A stretch of 64,000 nucleotides of DNA from Prochlorococcus sp. AG-402-I21 (GTDB lineage Bacteria; Cyanobacteriota; Cyanobacteriia; PCC-6307; Cyanobiaceae): NCBI GenBank assembly GCA_003216955.1, contig QCHZ01000003.1, positions 124,001 through 188,000 on the forward strand, in the 5' to 3' direction. The position numbers were made by a program, and so were the translations under genes. The notes below the pieces were generated by a model. The model was not told the origin of the DNA and did no database searches. It was given only the letters and a program-made list of their open reading frames with translations. This document shows positions 6,731 through 37,463 of this stretch, one piece after another; positions within the stretch are counted from its first letter, which is position 1, and the number at the start of each line of letters is the position of its first letter.

Positions 6731-7414
6731 ATGGATAGATCAATTAAGTCAAATATTGGGCAAATCAATCCAGAGCCATTAGGAGCATACGTTTTACCTC
6801 CTGAAAAGCATCAGCTCTATAAACGATTATTACTATCTATTTGTAAAAATGCGCCTATTGAATTTAGGCAACCATCTACTGATGGTGAACCTTTCACAGA
6901 CAGAGTTTGTCATAATAGTAATCAGAATCTTTTGAATGATTTTGATGAACTGAATGATTTAAAAAAAGATTTACAATCTATAACTCTTAATTTTATACAT
7001 CAATTAGGTTATCTTTCTGATCAAGTTGTTATTAATGATTGTTGGCTTAATGTGACAAATAAGGGTGCAATATTACCAACTCATTTCCACGCTAATTCAT
7101 ATATATCTGGTAATTATTTTGTTAATTATGATCCTCAAGTTGACACCAGACTTCAATTTTTGAATGATAGATATGATCGATCAGCTGCACCTGTGATTCA
7201 GTTGAAAAGAGATCCTAATAATAACACTGCTTATAATATGCCAAGTTTGAATATAAACGCAATGGAAGGTCAAATTTTAGTATGGCGGAGTCAGTTGGCA
7301 CATGGCTTTAAAAAACCCAATGAACGTAATAATCGAGTTACTCTAAGTTTTAATTCTATGCCAAAAATATGTACTAACGGGACAGGTAATTATAGCTTTG
7401 TAGTTGAAGGCTAG
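6731..7414 (+). CDS. Putative 2OG-Fe(II) oxygenase (TIGR02466-like)
   Basis: The protein has 227 residues and no signal peptide. The motif 'LPTHFHANSYISGNYFV' (about residue 115-131) supplies candidate iron ligands H-x-H. Near residue 190 'WRSQLAHGFKK' gives the distal histidine. The arginine in 'NNRVTLSFN' would bind 2-oxoglutarate. This order matches the TIGR02466 group of putative 2OG-Fe(II) oxygenases, whose substrates are mostly unknown. It sits between the giant surface protein and its likely secretion operon, which suggests hydroxylation of a surface protein or glycan; that is inference. The same H-x-H architecture recurs in the TPR fusion protein at 34610-36202. Confidence 0.7.
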   Translation: MDRSIKSNIGQINPEPLGAYVLPPEKHQLYKRLLLSICKNAPIEFRQPSTDGEPFTDRVCHNSNQNLLNDFDELNDLKKDLQSITLNFIHQLGYLSDQVVINDCWLNVTNKGAILPTHFHANSYISGNYFVNYDPQVDTRLQFLNDRYDRSAAPVIQLKRDPNNNTAYNMPSLNINAMEGQILVWRSQLAHGFKKPNERNNRVTLSFNSMPKICTNGTGNYSFVVEG

Positions 7415-28974: not shown

Positions 28975-29985
28975 ATGACAACGGCAGTAGAGGCTTCTCA
29001 GACTAAAAATAAATCTGCTGCTGCTGCTGCTGCAAGATCTGTGTCTGATATTGATTTGGTTAGGTCCTATTTGAGAGATATTGGAAGAGTGCCTTTACTT
29101 TCCCACGAGCAGGAAATCACTTTGGGAAGACAGGTTCAAGATCTGATGGTTCTAGAAAATCTTGAATCTGAACTTGAAAGTGATTTAGGTGAAAAGCCTG
29201 AAATTAATTATTTTGCCGATAAAGCTGGGATATCTCCCATCCAATTAAAAAAGAAGTTGAAAAGCGGGAGAAGAGCAAAAGAAAGAATGGTTGCGGCCAA
29301 CCTTCGATTAGTAGTCAGTGTTGCTAAGAAATATACAAAAAGAAATATGGAGTTACTTGATTTAATTCAAGAAGGGACTATTGGCTTAGTTCGAGGAGTT
29401 GAAAAATTTGATCCAACTAGAGGATATAAATTTTCAACCTACGCATATTGGTGGATTCGGCAAGGAATTACCAGAGCAATTGCTGAAAAGAGTAGGTCTA
29501 TTAGACTTCCTATTCATATAACTGAAATGCTAAATAAACTTAAAAAAGGTCAACGAGAATTAAGTCAAGAATTTTCTAGAACGCCCACATTGAAAGAACT
29601 TTCTGAATATGTTGAACTTCCTGAAAATGATGTCAAAGATTTGATGAGTAGAGCTGGTCAGCCAGTTAGCTTAGAAACTAAGATTGGTGATGGTGAAGAT
29701 ACCATTTTATTGGATTTATTATCTAACGAAATTGATATGCCCTCTGAACAAATAGAAAATGATTGTATGAAAGGGGATTTAGAAACCCTACTTGAACAAC
29801 TGCCTGAATTACAAAATCGTGTTTTAAGAATGAGGTATGGAATCGACGGAGATGATCCAATGAGTCTCACAGGCATTGGAAGAGTTTTAGGTATAAGTAG
29901 AGACAGAGTTAGAAATCTAGAACGAGATGGTTTGCGTGGATTACGTAAATCAGGAGAATCTGTAGAAGCCTATATGGCTTCTTGA
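28975..29985 (+). CDS. Group 2 sigma-70 family RNA polymerase sigma factor
   Basis: The protein has 336 residues. Region 1.2 (DLVRSYLRDIGRVPLLSHEQE), region 2 ('LRLVVSVAKKYTKR', 'DLIQEGTIGLVRGVEKFDP', 'KFSTYAYWWIRQGITRAI'), region 3 and region 4 ('LRMRYGIDGDDPMSLTGIGRVL') are complete. It lacks the long acidic region 1.1 of the principal sigma, so it is a group 2 factor, of which picocyanobacteria keep several. The 3' end overlaps the convergent hydrolase gene by 16 nt, and a stem-loop (29964-29982) lies in the overlap. Confidence 0.95.
   Translation: MTTAVEASQTKNKSAAAAAARSVSDIDLVRSYLRDIGRVPLLSHEQEITLGRQVQDLMVLENLESELESDLGEKPEINYFADKAGISPIQLKKKLKSGRRAKERMVAANLRLVVSVAKKYTKRNMELLDLIQEGTIGLVRGVEKFDPTRGYKFSTYAYWWIRQGITRAIAEKSRSIRLPIHITEMLNKLKKGQRELSQEFSRTPTLKELSEYVELPENDVKDLMSRAGQPVSLETKIGDGEDTILLDLLSNEIDMPSEQIENDCMKGDLETLLEQLPELQNRVLRMRYGIDGDDPMSLTGIGRVLGISRDRVRNLERDGLRGLRKSGESVEAYMAS
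29964..29982. terminator. Stem-loop over the convergent sigma/hydrolase stop codons
   Basis: AGAAGCC-tatat-GGCTTCT forms a perfect 7-bp stem with a 5-nt loop, inside the overlap of the two convergent reading frames. A second stem (TATTCT-tttg-AGAATA, 29988-30003) follows. The structure is symmetric, so it could act on both transcripts. There is no long T-tract. Confidence 0.45.
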
Positions 29986-30869
29986 ATTATTCTTTTGAGA
30001 ATAGGATTCACTTTTTCAGGCATTTCATCATGTGGACAATGCCCAGCATTAGGAATAACGTCTAAAGACTTGACACATTCGAAAGTTTCAAACCATTTTC
30101 GAGCCTCAGTAATTGGTTCCCAAGTATCTTTATCACCCCAAATTAAATAGACTGGAACTTTAAGTTCTTTTAATAAATCAGGTGCTAAGTGATCATCAAA
30201 TAAATTTATAAAGCCTCTGAATGCTTCAGGTGCTCCTTTTCTTTGTGTTGGTGTCCAAAGGGAATTAATCAAATACTTGTCGATGTTCCTCCCACTTGGA
30301 TAGGCAATTTTTAATATTTTTTCAATAAAATTGGGACTAGCTGCATTTTTAAAAATTCTTTCGCTTAAATATCTTTGTCTTACCAATGTTTTTATTACTG
30401 GCCTCATCAAACGCATAAATAGTGATTGCTCAGCTAAACGTTTATCATCCATTGTCCGTTGAGCGCAGTTGATTAAAACTACTCCTTTGCAAAGCTGATT
30501 AATTTTTTCTGAAGCATTTAAGGCTATGACTGCTCCAATAGAATTTCCAACTAATAAAACAGGTTTTTGAACAATTTCATCACAAAAATCGATAACCTGT
30601 TGACTCCATTCATCAAAACAATAATGAAAACTACATTGTGTTTGTCTTTCATATGATAATTGGGCAACCGGCTGACTACTTTCACCAAAGCCTATTAAAT
30701 CTATTGCGTAACATGGCCCTAACCAACTAATTGCTTTTTGATTAAATCGCCAATGATCTTTCGATGCACCAAATCCATGTATTAAAACTGTAGCAATTGG
30801 ATAGCCATTATTTTCATCTTCTAAATTCCAAGCTATTCGATGATTTTTCCAATGCCAAATATTTTTCAT
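29970..30869 (-). CDS. Alpha/beta-fold hydrolase
   Basis: The protein has 299 residues. The fold markers are the oxyanion segment 'VLIHGFGASKDHW' (about 27-39), the nucleophile elbow 'LLVGNSIGAVIAL' with Ser at about 111, the acid in 'YLIWGDKDTWEP' and the His in 'NAGHCPHDEMPE'. The cyanobacterial family is broad; members near photosynthesis genes have been linked to pheophytinase- or esterase-like activity, but the substrate is unknown here. The start is ATG. Confidence 0.88.
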   Translation of the reverse strand: MKNIWHWKNHRIAWNLEDENNGYPIATVLIHGFGASKDHWRFNQKAISWLGPCYAIDLIGFGESSQPVAQLSYERQTQCSFHYCFDEWSQQVIDFCDEIVQKPVLLVGNSIGAVIALNASEKINQLCKGVVLINCAQRTMDDKRLAEQSLFMRLMRPVIKTLVRQRYLSERIFKNAASPNFIEKILKIAYPSGRNIDKYLINSLWTPTQRKGAPEAFRGFINLFDDHLAPDLLKELKVPVYLIWGDKDTWEPITEARKWFETFECVKSLDVIPNAGHCPHDEMPEKVNPILKRIIQEAI

Positions 30870-30985
30870 ACTTTTTTAGCTATGGCTAGATATTATTTTA
30901 CAAATAATTAATGCATTTTTTCAACTCAAGAAGTTTTCAAATTCATTAGTCTTATAATGTGTCATTTATAATTGATAAATCTGGA

Positions 30986-31579
30986 ATGGATGGCTTTGAA
31001 AGAAACGAAAATTTAAAAATTAAAACAAATGAAGCAAGTACTTTTACAGTACCATTTACGATTGATGAAATGAATATAAACCATACTAAGACTTGTGAAA
31101 TCTCGAATGATTTATCTAAAGAGAAAATTATGTCACAGGCGTTTAGCTATCATTCTGCAGGTAAATTTGAAGAGGCAGCAAAATATTATCAATACTTTTT
31201 AGATCAAGGCTTTCTTGATGTAAAAGTTTTTTCCAATTATGGGTTCATTTTAAAAGATCTTGGAAAATTAGAAGAAGCAGAATTCTATATGCGTAAAGCG
31301 ATTCAACTAAAACCAGATTTTGCCGAGTTATATTCTAATCTTGGAATTATTTTGAAAGATCTGGGTAAATTTAAAGATGCTGAATTTTTTACTCGTAGAT
31401 CTATGGAATTAAAACCATCTTTGGTTCAAGCATATGGAAACCTTGCAGATATTTTGTTACAGATGGGGCAAGCTAATGAAGCCATGCTGTGGATAAAAAA
31501 AATGCTAAAAATTAGACCATGGTCAATAAAAGCTTTACATATTTTCAATCATATCTCTGAAATAGAATCAATTTCATAA
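30986..31579 (+). CDS. TPR protein (short member of a three-gene family)
   Basis: The protein has 197 residues from the ATG at 30986; a GTG at 30959 would add nine residues. A TATAAT box (30953-30958) sits immediately before that GTG, which favours the ATG. Residues about 35-85 carry 'LSKEKIMSQAFSYHSAGKFEEAAKYYQ', nearly the same as in the proteins at 32792 and 34610. About three TPR units follow (to about 185), with the alternating 'F/YSNLGIILKDLGK' pattern. It has no C-terminal enzyme domain. Its 3' end overlaps the convergent SET-like gene by 31 nt. Confidence 0.8.
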   Translation: MDGFERNENLKIKTNEASTFTVPFTIDEMNINHTKTCEISNDLSKEKIMSQAFSYHSAGKFEEAAKYYQYFLDQGFLDVKVFSNYGFILKDLGKLEEAEFYMRKAIQLKPDFAELYSNLGIILKDLGKFKDAEFFTRRSMELKPSLVQAYGNLADILLQMGQANEAMLWIKKMLKIRPWSIKALHIFNHISEIESIS

Positions 31580-32547
31580 TTAATAGCTTGACTAATTACC
31601 CTAGAAGAATAATTATCTAACAAGTTTAATTTTTCAGAGATTTCTTTACGTCTAGAGAGGTTATAATTTTTTATAATTGAAAAAAAATCATTTGGAATAT
31701 TTAAAAGTTTGTTTCTTATTATTAATTCATTAAAGTAACTTTTAATTACTGATGAATTTCTAATGGATGCAATAGGTAGGCCTTCTATAAATACTTGAGA
31801 CCCATTCTTATTTACATTAATTTTGTCATTAATTATATCGAGACCTTTACAAATTAATTGAATACCAGAATTTTGTATGTAAATACTAAAAGGTAGAGAG
31901 AAGATAATAGGTTCTTTACTAAAAAAACCATAGCTAAAAGCACGCTTTAAAGAGCTCTCATATCCATAACTATGTGTTAATTCATCTTTCATTTGTGAAT
32001 AATAAGGTGTGCTGATACCAGAAGTAGTTCTCACAAATGGTAATGATTTCACGTTATGATTTACAAGCTCTAATAAAGGACATATTACTGATAAATTTTT
32101 GAAATGAAATTGTCTAGCAGTTAAGAACTGTCTTTTAATTATTTGATCCCAATCCCCTTTATGTCTATCGTCTATATCCAAAATCATATATTGTTTTATT
32201 AATTTTTTTAAATTACTTGGAAAAACTTTTAAACCTTTTTCAAAAGACTCTGTTGTTTCTCTTCCCCCTGTTCCCCATGAAAAATTGTCTTGATAAAATT
32301 TAAAAAAATCTTTTATATCAATAGAATGTTCTGTATTTTCTTTTATTCTTAGTTTGTTGTCTTTTAAATAAATATCATTTATTCTAATCATTAAATGTGA
32401 TGGAATAAAAATTCTCGATTTCAGAGCTTCATTTATTGGAAAAATACCTCTGCCATCTTTTCCATGTTTTTGATAGACATTTTCTGCTTTTCCACCAAGC
32501 TTTTGAAATTTATCAACTAAAATGTCCCATTTTTCATTGCTTTCCAT
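31549..32547 (-). CDS. SET-domain-like protein (putative protein lysine methyltransferase)
   Basis: The protein has 332 residues. The opening 'KHGKDGRGIFPINEAL' (about 27-42) matches the first SET motif (G-x-G-x-F/Y). 'LLELVNHN' (158-165) matches the central N-H element. 'MKDELTHSYGY' (186-196) matches the GEEL-x-x-x-YG element that completes the SAM and lysine sites. The arrangement, with an insert between motifs, is like the Rubisco LSMT/SETD branch. No signal peptide is seen. The gene is convergent with the first TPR gene and divergent from the second. Substrates are unknown; the TPR proteins or surface proteins nearby are candidates by position only. Confidence 0.6.
   Translation of the reverse strand: MESNEKWDILVDKFQKLGGKAENVYQKHGKDGRGIFPINEALKSRIFIPSHLMIRINDIYLKDNKLRIKENTEHSIDIKDFFKFYQDNFSWGTGGRETTESFEKGLKVFPSNLKKLIKQYMILDIDDRHKGDWDQIIKRQFLTARQFHFKNLSVICPLLELVNHNVKSLPFVRTTSGISTPYYSQMKDELTHSYGYESSLKRAFSYGFFSKEPIIFSLPFSIYIQNSGIQLICKGLDIINDKINVNKNGSQVFIEGLPIASIRNSSVIKSYFNELIIRNKLLNIPNDFFSIIKNYNLSRRKEISEKLNLLDNYSSRVISQAINYEIDSISEI
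31558..31576. terminator. Short stem-loop in the TPR/SET overlap
   Basis: TGAAAT-agaatca-ATTTCA is a 6-bp perfect inverted repeat just before the TPR stop codon and inside the end of the SET-like gene. It is weak but repeats the stop-proximal stem-loop pattern of this window. Confidence 0.3.
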
Positions 32548-32730
32548 TTAAATTTTTTGGGTTAACATGATTTTAATCTATGAGTATGATTAAATTTTTC
32601 TAAGATACTTTTAATTATTTTTCTGTATCTCTAAATTCTATTTTTAATATGTTATGGAGAGATATTGCTAGGAAAATTTTTTTTATTATTAATTCTTTCA
32701 ATATCAAGAGCAAATAGGAAAATTAATGTT

Positions 32731-32760
32731 TTTACTTTCATAATTGAATCACCTTATAAT
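32731..32760 (+). promoter_or_regulatory. Candidate sigma-70 promoter for TPR-SGNH gene
   Basis: TTTACT (32731-32736) and a consensus TATAAT (32755-32760) are separated by 18 bp and lie 32 nt before the ATG. It falls in the largest protein- and RNA-free gap of the window (32548-32791, 244 nt), which is otherwise AT-rich with no further structure that I can see. Confidence 0.5.
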
Positions 32761-32791
32761 TACCAGAGATAGACGATCTTCCATATGACTC

Positions 32792-34528
32792 ATGGATAGA
32801 GAAGAAATAAACCAAGGATCAGATAATAATACTAAAGAAGGAACGACATTTCCGGTTGCAAATCCTTCTAAGCTTAGTAAAAGAGAAATTATTGCAAAAG
32901 CTTTTAGTTATCACTCAAAAGGTTATCTCATTGAGGCCGTAAAATATTATCAAAAATTTATTGATCAGGGTTATCATGATCCTCGTGTTTACTCAAACTA
33001 TGGATCCATACTGCAAAATAAAGGAAATCTTGATCAAGCAATTAAGCTTTTAAATAAATCAATTAAACTATTCCCCAGTAGTCCAGAAGCCTATTCTAAT
33101 CTTGGTAATTTATATAGAGATTTAGGAAACTTTAGTCAAGCAGAGTTGTTGTTAAATACTGCAATTAATTTAAATTCAAGTTTTTTTCAAGCATACTATA
33201 ATATTGGAAATTTATATAGAGATATTGGTCGATTCAAGGAAGCTGAAAAATCCATGAGAAAAGCTATAGAATTAAATAGTAATTTTGCAGAGGCATATAA
33301 TAATCTTGGAATCATATTAAATGAATTAAATCAATCTGATGAAGCCGAGTTGATGACAGTCAAGGCTATAGAACTTAACCCTGATTTTGCAGAGGCTCAT
33401 TGTAATTTGGGCAAAAGATATAGGGAGCTAGGTAAATTAAATGAAGCTAAGAAATTTATTGATAAAGCTATACGACTTAACCCTAATCTTGCTGAAGCTT
33501 ATTCTAATTTAGGAGGAATATTGAATGAACTTGGAAGATCAAAAGAAGCAGAGATGGCAATGAGGAGGGCTTTAGAGCTTAATCCTAATCTTGCAGAGAC
33601 TTATGCTAACCTAGGCGGAGTTTTAAGAGATCTTGGTAAATTAGAGGAGTTAATTCTCATCTCTGCATCTTCTCTAGAATTAGATAGTTTAAGTAATGGG
33701 GATAAATTACAGGCATCTTTAAAAATGGCATTAGCTAATCTAATGTTAGAGAACTTTTCAGAGACTTATTTTAATATTAATCAAACTATTGAATATATAA
33801 ATCAAGGTGGGATTGAAATGATTAAAAATAAACAAAATCAGAAGAATTCAATAGTTTTCTTTAAGTTAATTTCTGCTTTATATCCTAAACTTAAGAATAA
33901 CTTAAGTTATGTATGTAAAGAAAAGATACCTCATATTGGAGAAAGTCACTGTCTTTCTTTTTCTCACCAATCTGTCAAATTTGGCTCTAATATTAAAAAA
34001 ATTCAACCTGTTTTAGTAGTTGGTGCTAAAGCTTGGCATTTTGCAAATCAGAAGAGTAATCAATGGAAAAGCTCATTGCTAGAGCAGATCAGGAACCATA
34101 CCTATAGTGATGAAGTCTTTATTTCTTTTGGAGAGATAGATTGCAGGGAGGAAGAGGGAATATTATATTTTTCTCAAAAATATCAGAAGGATGTATCAGT
34201 TGTATGTAAAAACACTATAAATGGATATTTAGATTTTATGGAACAATCTCTTTCTAAATTTTATTCAAAAAGATTTTATTTTGGCATTCCAGCACCGACT
34301 GCAAAAGGAATTAATATCTCATTAGATATCCAACGAAAAGACTTGATCAAAACTTATAATTATTTATTGAAGAAAGAGGTTCTTTCTAGAGGTTCATATT
34401 TTCTTGATGTTTTTAAATTAACTGTTGATGAGGATGGCTTTAATAATAGTATTTATATGTGTGATGAGGTACACTTAGATCCAGACTGTTTGAACTTGTT
34501 ATTTATGAACCATTTATATATTCCTTGA
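32792..34528 (+). CDS. TPR protein with C-terminal SGNH-hydrolase-like domain
   Basis: The protein has 578 residues. The family N-terminus 'LSKREIIAKAFSYHSKGYL' (about 27-45) leads into about seven TPRs (to about 290), each ending like 'AIELNPDFAEAHCNLG'. After a helical linker, residues about 380-575 show 'IGESHCLSF' (G-x-S block, Ser about 384), 'FGEIDCRE' and a final 'CDEVHLDPD'. The last gives the D-x-x-H pair expected in SGNH/GDSL-type esterases and acyltransferases. Related domains modify polysaccharide acyl groups. There is no signal peptide. An 81-nt gap separates it from the next family member, which has the same strand and its own -10 box. Confidence 0.75.
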   Translation: MDREEINQGSDNNTKEGTTFPVANPSKLSKREIIAKAFSYHSKGYLIEAVKYYQKFIDQGYHDPRVYSNYGSILQNKGNLDQAIKLLNKSIKLFPSSPEAYSNLGNLYRDLGNFSQAELLLNTAINLNSSFFQAYYNIGNLYRDIGRFKEAEKSMRKAIELNSNFAEAYNNLGIILNELNQSDEAELMTVKAIELNPDFAEAHCNLGKRYRELGKLNEAKKFIDKAIRLNPNLAEAYSNLGGILNELGRSKEAEMAMRRALELNPNLAETYANLGGVLRDLGKLEELILISASSLELDSLSNGDKLQASLKMALANLMLENFSETYFNINQTIEYINQGGIEMIKNKQNQKNSIVFFKLISALYPKLKNNLSYVCKEKIPHIGESHCLSFSHQSVKFGSNIKKIQPVLVVGAKAWHFANQKSNQWKSSLLEQIRNHTYSDEVFISFGEIDCREEEGILYFSQKYQKDVSVVCKNTINGYLDFMEQSLSKFYSKRFYFGIPAPTAKGINISLDIQRKDLIKTYNYLLKKEVLSRGSYFLDVFKLTVDEDGFNNSIYMCDEVHLDPDCLNLLFMNHLYIP

Positions 34529-34578
34529 TTTTAATTGTTATTAATCTAATACTTGATGTTTATTGTATGTATAAATTG

Positions 34579-34584
34579 TATAAT
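34579..34584 (+). promoter_or_regulatory. Candidate -10 box for TPR-oxygenase gene
   Basis: A consensus TATAAT lies 25 nt upstream of the ATG at 34610. No convincing -35 hexamer is present at 16-18 bp. All three TPR-family genes have TATAAT within 35 nt of the start. Confidence 0.4.
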
Positions 34585-34609
34585 TTAGAGTAGTTATGAT
34601 CCTAAAAAA

Positions 34610-36202
34610 ATGCAAGGGTCTGAAAAAAAAAATAGATTCAATACAAACTACCAAATCAAAACTTATCCTATTCCATTTGTTAGTACATTTATTCAAGAAG
34701 ACATAACAATATTTAGTGGCTTTCCTAACACTCTGGACAAAGAACAAATTATTAGTGCAGCGTTCCACCACCATTCTAAAGGTGAATTAGTAGAAGCTGA
34801 TAAATATTATCAACTATTTTTTAAGAGAGGATTTACAGATCCAAAGGTTTTTTCTAATTATGGAATATTTAAAAAAAATCAAGGTAATCTCAATGATGCA
34901 GAAAAATGGACTCGCAATGCAATTAAGTTGCAGCCAAACTTCGGAGAGGCTCATGCTAATTTAGGGAGTATCTTGAAGGCTCAGGGAAAGTTAAATGAAG
35001 CTGAAAAATATCTTAGTGAAATAATTAAGTTATATCCAAGTCTAGTGGTTGCTCATATTAATTTAAGTAGTATCCTAAAAGATCTAGGTAGATTGAAAGA
35101 AGCCGAAATATCTATAAATAGAGCTATAGAATTAAAACCTAATTCTTCAGTTGCTCATTCTAGTCTGGGTATTATTTTACGAGAACAAGGAAGGCTTATT
35201 GAGGCTGAAAAATCTCTTCGGAAATCGATACATATTCAGCCAGATTTAGCAGATGCATATGTCAATTTGGGGCTCATATTAAAAGATCTTGGTAAAGTAA
35301 GTGAAGCACGTAGTCTTTGGATCAAGGCAATTGAAATTGAACCAAGAATTGAAAGAAATTATTTATTATTGGCTGAATCATTTTACCAAGAATGTAATTA
35401 TAAGAGCGCTCTCAAATATGTTGAAGGAAAACGATATGGTCGTAGTCAAAGTTTATACTTAGGATGTTTACTATCTCTTGATAAAGAGAGAGATTTTCAT
35501 CAGGAGTATGAAAAATGTTTATCGACATCTATCTGTAATGCAGAAATAGGTGCCATAGTAGATCATGCAAATCTTATTTATAAAAGGAGATATAATTCAC
35601 CTTTTTGTAATGAATCTATCAACTTTATTTATTTCGATAAAATATTTGAAGATTCATTCTCTACTTGTGATATAGAGAAGCTTCTTGATTATATTGCACA
35701 TGGTAAAATAGGAATGAGATCGCAGGGAATTCTGGATAATGGTGTTCAGACTTCGGGAAATCTATTTTCATTAGATTATCCATTTATTAAATCACTTAAA
35801 GAAGTAATAGAAGATAAAATTAATTTGTATAAACTTAGATTCAAGGATAGTCAAGAAGGTTTTATAAAGAATTGGCCTAAGAAATATGAACTGCGTTCTT
35901 GGATCATTTCTATGAAAAGTGGTGGGTTTCTTAAGCCGCATAATCACTATTATGGGTGGATCACAGGAAGCTTCTATTTAAAAGTGCCAAAATATACAAA
36001 TAGGCCTAAATCTGGAAATATTGTATTTAGCTATCAAGGTCCGCAATATCCAACTAAAAATAGTAATTTTACTGTGCTTGAAGAAAAAGTAGAAACTAGA
36101 GATATCTGTATTTTCCCTTCATCCTTATTTCATCATACTATTCCATTTGAAGGAACCGAAGAAAGAGTTTCTTTTGTCTTTGATTTGGTCCAAAAAATGT
36201 AA
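34610..36202 (+). CDS. TPR protein with C-terminal 2OG-Fe(II) oxygenase-like domain
   Basis: The protein has 530 residues. The family N-terminus 'LDKEQIISAAFHHHSKGELVEADKYYQ' (spread over about 43-70) precedes about six TPRs (to about 265). Residues about 350-530 form an oxygenase-like domain: 'LKPHNHYYGWITGSFYLKVP' region with H-x-H near 443-445, 'DICIFPSSLFHHTIPF' with distal His near 506, and the Arg of 'EERVSFVFDL'. This is the TIGR02466-type arrangement also seen in the stand-alone protein at 6731-7414. The TPRs would hold the substrate peptide. The substrate is unknown. Confidence 0.75.
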   Translation: MQGSEKKNRFNTNYQIKTYPIPFVSTFIQEDITIFSGFPNTLDKEQIISAAFHHHSKGELVEADKYYQLFFKRGFTDPKVFSNYGIFKKNQGNLNDAEKWTRNAIKLQPNFGEAHANLGSILKAQGKLNEAEKYLSEIIKLYPSLVVAHINLSSILKDLGRLKEAEISINRAIELKPNSSVAHSSLGIILREQGRLIEAEKSLRKSIHIQPDLADAYVNLGLILKDLGKVSEARSLWIKAIEIEPRIERNYLLLAESFYQECNYKSALKYVEGKRYGRSQSLYLGCLLSLDKERDFHQEYEKCLSTSICNAEIGAIVDHANLIYKRRYNSPFCNESINFIYFDKIFEDSFSTCDIEKLLDYIAHGKIGMRSQGILDNGVQTSGNLFSLDYPFIKSLKEVIEDKINLYKLRFKDSQEGFIKNWPKKYELRSWIISMKSGGFLKPHNHYYGWITGSFYLKVPKYTNRPKSGNIVFSYQGPQYPTKNSNFTVLEEKVETRDICIFPSSLFHHTIPFEGTEERVSFVFDLVQKM

Positions 36203-36239
36203 ATTATATATTCAATTAAATCTAAAATATCACATCTAA

Positions 36240-37463
36240 TTGCTTCAATTCCTGGCGAGTTCACTATTGTTTTCTATCTTTAAGCTTAGTAAAATCACTT
36301 TATCTCTTTTGTTAAACTACAATACCAAAATTAATAATTCTATTAAAGATATTCAAAATAATCTTTTAGATTGGTTTAGTGTAAATGGGCGACATTGGAT
36401 ACCTTGGAAATTAAAGATAGATGGTTCGATTCCAAAATTGGGTGAAAAAATATCTCCCTACCAAATTTGGATTGCAGAAGTTATGCTTCAACAAACTCAA
36501 ATTAAAGTTGTAGTTCCATATTGGAGGGAATGGATGAGTTCTTTCCCAACGCTTCTTGATTTAGTCAATGCTGATCAACAAAATATTTTGTTGAGATGGC
36601 AAGGTATGGGCTATTACTCAAGAGCTAAGAGAATCCACCAATCCTCCAAACTATTAATTAATACAATTGGAAAAACTCAGATTTCAGATCCTTCTTGCTG
36701 GCCAGTTGAATTAAGTTTCTGGATGAGTTTGCCTGGAATCGGTAGAAATACGGCAGGAAGTATTATTTCTTCTGCTTTTGATTTACCTGTTCCGATCTTA
36801 GATGGAAATGTAAAAAGGATTCTTTCAAGATTGATTGCTAGTACTAAACCTCCTCTTAAAGATGAGAAAAGGTTATGGTCGATTAGTAATAACTTAATCT
36901 CTAAAGATAGACCTCGGGATTTCAATCAAGCTTTGATGGATTTAGGTTCAAAAGTTTGCACTATAAATAATCCTCTTTGTCAAAGCTGTCCATTACAAAA
37001 AAATTGCTTTTCTTATGTTTATTACGATCCTATTGACTTCCCTAAAAAGAATATGAGAAAAACTATTCCCATTCAAGAAATAGGTATAGGTCTTATTTTT
37101 AATAAAAAAGGAGAATTACTAATTGATCAGCGGCTTGAAAATTCAAGCATGGGCGGAATGTGGGAGTTCCCAGGCGGAAAAAAAGAGCCTCATGAAACTA
37201 TTCAAGAAACAATTAAAAGAGAAATTGTTGAAGAATTAGGAATTGTTGTAAATGTGGGAAAGCAGCTTCTATCTTTTGAACACTCTTATAGTCATAAGAA
37301 ATTACATTTGACTGTTCATTTTTGTGAATGGGTTTCAGGCAAGCCAAAACCTATTACAAGTCAAAAATTGCTTTGGGTGGATCCTAGCCGATTATGTGAT
37401 TTTCCCTTCCCAGCTGCTAATAAAAAAATTATTTCTGAATTACATAAATATCTAAGTAATTAA
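36240..37463 (+). CDS. mutY: A/G-specific adenine DNA glycosylase with NUDIX domain
   Basis: The protein has about 407 residues. It removes adenine mispaired with 8-oxoguanine. The HhH-GPD core includes 'EVMLQQTQIKVVVPYWREWM', 'LPGIGRNTAGSI' with 'ILDGNVKRIL', and the Fe-S cluster Cys set C-x6-C-x2-C-x5-C ('CTINNPLCQSCPLQKNC'). The C-terminal MutT-like domain (about 275-405; 'GGMWEFPGGKKEPHE', 'REIVEELGI') recognises the 8-oxoG strand and has a near-complete NUDIX box. The start is uncertain: TTG at 36240 gives about 40 residues before the usual 'LLDWFSVNGRHWIPW'. Confidence 0.93.
   Translation: MLQFLASSLLFSIFKLSKITLSLLLNYNTKINNSIKDIQNNLLDWFSVNGRHWIPWKLKIDGSIPKLGEKISPYQIWIAEVMLQQTQIKVVVPYWREWMSSFPTLLDLVNADQQNILLRWQGMGYYSRAKRIHQSSKLLINTIGKTQISDPSCWPVELSFWMSLPGIGRNTAGSIISSAFDLPVPILDGNVKRILSRLIASTKPPLKDEKRLWSISNNLISKDRPRDFNQALMDLGSKVCTINNPLCQSCPLQKNCFSYVYYDPIDFPKKNMRKTIPIQEIGIGLIFNKKGELLIDQRLENSSMGGMWEFPGGKKEPHETIQETIKREIVEELGIVVNVGKQLLSFEHSYSHKKLHLTVHFCEWVSGKPKPITSQKLLWVDPSRLCDFPFPAANKKIISELHKYLSN

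Follow-up and report, generated by a model that had tools for sequence, protein, structure and literature searches.

Gene content and insertion site

The window analysed here, a stretch of 64,000 nucleotides, corresponds to positions 124001-188000 of contig 3 in a 1.73-Mb Prochlorococcus genome. It carries an insert of ~5.4 kb, filled by four genes, between an alpha/beta-hydrolase gene and mutY (Table 1), which are directly adjacent, as an empty site, in 26 relatives. Three of the inserted genes lie on the plus strand and, as the initial annotation had recognized, encode neighbouring TPR proteins with a common N-terminal block (N-block; 54-55% identity over 57 aa), within which AF-x-HS-G...EA-KYYQ...VxSNYG is invariant among the three proteins. 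The open reading frame of the first TPR gene opens at GTG 30959, with ATG 30986 as the likely start.

Table 1. Coordinates of the insert, its genes and domains, and the flanking genes (window positions)
Feature	Position	Strand	Remarks
Conserved alpha/beta-hydrolase gene flanking the insert	29970-30869		
Insert between alpha/beta-hydrolase gene and mutY	30870..36330	.	Approximate limits; absent in 26 relatives
TPR protein with N-block, without fused enzyme	30986..31579	+	Ends in KIRPWSIKALHIFNH, a tail restricted to SET-paired members
N-block of first TPR protein (TPR1, family-specific)	31103..31273	+	
Predicted LSMT/SETD3-type SET-domain methyltransferase	31549..32547	-	Fold from model; convergent with first TPR gene, 31 nt overlap
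TPR protein with N-block and SGNH-like C-terminal domain	32792..34528	+	
SGNH-like domain	33677..34525	+	Blocks GES-H (S90), G116, GEID (D155), DxxH (D263, H266); segment numbering
TPR protein with N-block and C-terminal 2OG-FeII_Oxy_5 (PF13759)	34610..36202	+	
mutY ORF flanking the insert	36240-37463		

The same site is occupied by an N-block-sulfotransferase gene in one relative (G030) and by an N-block-SGNH gene in another (G011; L196:5395-7795), in which the adjoining mutY is a 141-aa C-terminal ORF with its N-terminal part gone; the MutY repair enzyme has probably been lost in this strain. No integrase-like ORF was recognized among the four genes of the window's insert, and inspection of the site by eye found no common sequence to explain insertion. 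A phage origin was considered and rejected, as the SET protein is unmatched in phage records and neither the N-block nor the SGNH domain has relatives in viral contigs.

A lineage-specific leader and first repeat

Each of the three TPR proteins begins with a common ~45-residue leader (TFxVPF), followed by a family-specific first TPR. In an alignment of 100 proteins the leader has the consensus KKITEVKTFPVPFALGEIKENITINTNTPSKPSKEQIINQAF, with no hydrophobic stretch over its ~45 residues, and the first repeat after it reads KFHSQGNISEAAKYYQYFINQGFKDHRVFSNYG. Within the leader motif TFxVPFxL, proline is conserved in 94%, phenylalanine in 88% and valine in 86% of these 100 proteins, and the motif was detected by pattern in 86 of them. 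By register, the N-block is TPR repeat 1, with helices at 30-42 and 46-58 in a single-sequence model.

A search for further TPR proteins with this N-terminus in related genomes, which the initial annotation had proposed, recovered 40 and 45 copies in two complete relatives (G034 and G011), alongside 25 in the window genome (E <= 1e-4), a number far beyond chance; other genera of the family hold 0-6 copies among the best 21 candidates per genome. The caveat that the N-block could be only a generic TPR is correct in so far as register and model make it a repeat, but is rejected in that form, since the repeat is family-specific and linked to the leader. On sequence comparison, leader and TPR1 together are a distinct lineage-specific family. 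The dN/dS of the N-block (0.35-0.42) is moderately low, though influenced by recombination, suggesting that the segment matters as protein; because it is a TPR repeat, part of its conservation is structural. In two further genes (L100:8205-10259 and L100:16309-18828), the leader precedes TPRs of another type and a radical SAM-SPASM domain.

Enzymes fused to the common N-terminus

To describe the C-terminal ends, we used 109 non-redundant N-block proteins from the clusters of four genomes, with classes backed by Pfam. GT9-like (n = 27) and 2OG-FeII_Oxy_3-like (n = 3) modules were assigned from scores under the Pfam cut-offs, whilst the remaining modules comprised GT41 (n = 17, a true GT41 match), sulfotransferase (n = 12), 2OG-FeII_Oxy_5 (n = 12), class I methyltransferase (n = 6), TylF-like (n = 5), SGNH-like (n = 4) and glycerophosphotransferase (n = 2), besides singletons including FkbM and an alpha/beta-hydrolase-like domain named from motifs only. 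Three methyltransferase and two 2OG-oxygenase types are thereby represented, and 16 of the 109 proteins have no C-terminal domain. The family thus has the architecture of an N-terminal TPR array with a C-terminal enzyme (FlmG/OGT type).

Within the window, profile searches of the C-terminal domains settled one of the fused ends. The 2OG-oxygenase-like end proposed for the third TPR protein matched PF13759 with 81.2 bits against a cut-off of 27 (E 7.7e-23), but the SET and SGNH candidates gave no significant profile match. For the second TPR protein, the proposed SGNH-like end is suggested by mostly invariant SGNH blocks: G88, S90, G116, D263 and H266 are unchanged in 16 homologues, giving the block I Gly-x-Ser, the oxyanion Gly and the block V Asp-x-x-His. 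However, no Pfam family matched the domain, and block III, expected as GxND, reads GEID, with Ile in place of Asn in most of the 16 homologues, for which reason we call the domain SGNH-like only. Matches to SGNH esterases in the PDB were sub-threshold (E 0.18-0.21), as was a GDSL_2 match for L163 (E 0.01), and it is the motifs that suggest its SGNH identity.

Enzymes encoded beside TPR-only members

The minus-strand gene convergent with the first TPR gene had been read as a putative lysine methyltransferase. As Pfam SET matched none of the 19 SET-like members and profile searches found none in the PDB, structure was used in place of sequence-profile proof. An AlphaFold model (24 homologues in the alignment) reached pLDDT 92.6 and pTM 0.88, and its top PDB matches by Foldseek were SET enzymes or complexes containing one, namely LSMT, SETD3, SETD6, SMYD2 and a plastid polymerase subunit, with a best E of 9.5e-7 and probability 1.00, albeit TM of just 0.40-0.49 for the LSMT/SETD3 matches. 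GRG 32-34, N163 and Y194 are invariant and H164 nearly so across 25 homologues, and by analogy these positions would serve as the GxG, NH and catalytic Tyr motifs. Modelling, rather than a sequence profile, thus supports a SET fold of the LSMT/SETD3 type for this putative methyltransferase.

Wherever the contig permits a check (26 loci), the SET gene and a TPR gene converge, and in 23 of these loci their 3' ends overlap. The partner carries the N-block in most loci; at L020 and L111 it is cut by the contig end. Such a convergent overlap differs from an operon and does not imply joint expression. An (R/K)(P/S)W tail closes all 26 SET-paired TPR proteins but none of 105 other N-block proteins; in the window, the overlap does not include this motif. 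Three SET relatives from Synechococcus (26-36% identical) occur without a TPR partner, and as they stand alone, the pairing looks like recruitment. A standalone Synechococcus SET relative (L133:613-1692) has a phage-type integrase gene about 2.3 kb away. In one locus, L127:3998-6105, from a single-cell genome labelled as a gammaproteobacterium, the TPR partner convergent with the SET gene has a PWS tail and no N-block, possibly an older form of the pair, a transfer or contamination.

A second type of TPR-only member ends in the tail GxIxF(D/N) and is followed directly downstream by a 199-aa P4H-like 2OG oxygenase gene in 18 of 19 cases, spaced at -4 to +22 nt with one at -55; the P4H-like neighbour is absent at all 11 distant core homologues. 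Carbamoyltransferase genes lie directly downstream of two further members without a fused enzyme. The initial annotation had the first protein of the window ending in nothing. It does stop after its TPRs, yet it bears the SET-specific tail beside its partner enzyme gene, and the description is misleading for two types of TPR-only members, as both have a class-specific tail and a partner enzyme gene. For the SET and P4H-like types we accordingly rejected the idea that TPR-only members lack chemistry.

That the family consists of ordinary TPR paralogues joined to unrelated enzymes through neutral duplication is highly improbable. TPR repeats are prone to recombination, and low-light Prochlorococcus strains have high TPR Pfam counts, an enrichment attributed to photosystem assembly (PMC11357015), but the leader and N-block are specific, the trans pairs carry enzyme-specific tails, the pairing is conserved across contexts and the chemistries recur. 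We are instead confident that the family is a modular handle-enzyme system. Its handle is built from the conserved leader, TPR1 and a variable number of TPRs, with the enzyme either fused C-terminally or encoded beside a TPR-only member, the SET and P4H-like partners having the enzyme-specific tail.

Exchange of modules at the common 5' end

There is strong support for the proposal of one N-terminus with interchangeable chemistry, including the SET enzyme, and with cis and trans arrangements taken together it covers at least 14 enzyme classes. When each of the 109 proteins was compared with its nearest neighbour in N-terminal DNA, the enzyme class agreed in 15 cases, against 14.8 expected by permutation, and the genome of origin agreed in 53, against 26.8 expected and a maximum of 46 over 1000 permutations. 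These tests rest on a short segment from four genomes and do not count events. Of the 12 most similar N-terminal DNA pairs (>=90%), 11 join different enzyme classes in one genome, and several of the top pairs are 93-99% identical over 571-921 nt, with similarity stopping before the enzyme. As N-terminal DNA is uninformative on enzyme class and near-identical tracts lead into different enzymes, the modules are swapped, with handles and enzymes recombining freely in these genomes.

Of 98 regions upstream of N-block genes (L077-L108), 16 contain the 12-mer TTAGTAGTAAAA, against a shuffle maximum of about 2.5; it is possibly a common promoter or a recombination site. Some common tracts reach past the start codon into the upstream DNA (as far as -84, -102, -360 and at least -599). 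Both observations would suit an expression cassette, whereby the common 5' end is a promoter and start region joined by newly acquired enzyme genes, and the protein segment has no common partner. We consider this unlikely, given that other near-identical tracts start inside the coding sequence, that the leader motif is kept as protein, with the N-block dN/dS given above, and that TPR-only members with enzyme-specific tails would be senseless as promoters. It is probable, rather, that the shared N-terminus docks to a common partner.

Genomic context and proposed function

Family members are located in surface-polysaccharide islands and, elsewhere, insert singly or as small cassettes. In four genomes picked for having clusters, recurrent neighbours included rmlA, rmlB, kdsB, kdsC, a KDO8P/DAHP-type synthase and an RfbH-like aminotransferase, and no recurrent candidate substrate protein was recognized. 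These neighbourhoods point to surface-polysaccharide islands rather than to surface-protein targets and, because such neighbours make nucleotide sugars and KDO, the decoration of surface glycans (or glycoproteins) would be the likeliest role.

FkbM, TylF, sulfotransferase, carbamoyltransferase and glycerophosphotransferase modules are typical of glycans, whereas SET, GT41 and P4H-like enzymes usually modify proteins. As glycans are the customary target of most of these chemistries, a surface glycan is favoured over a protein, and we rate it at about even chances as the final target. The same modular system could alternatively act on a surface or pilus protein, or on the TPR proteins themselves, a reading to which we give perhaps one chance in four. 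SET-fold enzymes of the LSMT/SETD3 class, the fold modelled here, act on proteins, and GT41 is the family of the O-GlcNAc transferases. The precedent of FlmG also has a protein substrate (PMC7591256). Against this stand the glycan-type modules with their rml and kds neighbours, and the clusters in which no recurrent substrate protein was recognized.

The explanation that we consider best, and on balance probable as a whole, is one of cytosolic modification enzymes on one common handle. The leader and TPR1 would dock every enzyme on one partner, which may be a common acceptor or a complex that assembles glycans or glycoproteins. The acceptor would be positioned by the TPR superhelix for the enzyme, fused or recruited, to carry out its step, whether glycosylation, sulfation, methylation, carbamoylation, hydroxylation or ester exchange. 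In the window, the (R/K)(P/S)W tail would let the TPR protein bring the SET enzyme to a lysine (or histidine) substrate. Recombination at the common 5' end would swap decorations and generate cell-surface diversity, plausibly under phage and grazer pressure. We tentatively propose, at somewhat less than even chances, an undescribed combinatorial surface-decoration system in which one docking N-terminus serves more than 12 chemistries in cis or trans, recombination at the common end provides built-in diversification, and strains of one genus differ in the decorating enzymes held at the same sites.

Relation to known systems

In the open literature (openly licensed papers) we found no description of this system, only TPR Pfam counts, and the family, which is real and large, is apparently undescribed as a system, with an architecture and module swapping legible in its sequences and a docking role and target that we infer. 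In FlmG of Caulobacter, the TPR domain binds flagellin and the C-terminal GT (GT-B) modifies it, so that in bacteria an N-terminal TPR domain can choose what a transferase fused to it will modify (PMC7591256). The present proteins likewise join an N-terminal TPR domain to C-terminal chemistry and, by analogy with FlmG, their TPR domain may bind the acceptor; FlmG, however, is one protein with one chemistry, without a shared leader, swapping or trans partners. GT41 O-GlcNAc transferase and SPINDLY also combine a TPR superhelix with GT41; here, GT41 belongs to a set of at least 14 exchangeable modules on the same N-terminus. The SET-like protein resembles Rubisco LSMT, SETD3 and SETD6 (class VII SET) in its modelled fold and in the conserved GRG, NH and catalytic-type Tyr positions, but is bacterial, has no sequence-level match and is paired with a TPR protein bearing a specific tail.

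Cellulosomal dockerins are docking tags, a common module on many different enzymes, as is seen in the Prochlorococcus family too; unlike them, the family is intracellular and TPR-based, with no known cohesin-like partner and with heavy module shuffling. Polymorphic toxins and prochlorosin leaders similarly have a shared N-terminal segment and a functional C-terminal end exchanged by recombination, but the parts exchanged here are glycan- or protein-modifying enzymes rather than toxins or peptides.

Prochlorococcus genomes are streamlined, yet in these strains 25-45 of about 2,000 genes belong to this one shuffled family, which offers an alternative reading of the TPR-domain excess in low-light strains. 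If the N-terminus is a docking tag, it would provide a single handle with which to isolate the surface-decorating machinery of a very abundant photosynthetic organism, and would specify how recombination diversifies the surface against phages and grazers. The SET/TPR pair, in turn, is a putative bacterial protein-methylation unit that can be tested.

Elsewhere in the window, a standalone 2OG-FeII_Oxy_5 protein of 227 aa (6731-7414, plus strand; 59 bits) is encoded without N-block or TPRs, and similar short standalone proteins are present in relatives.
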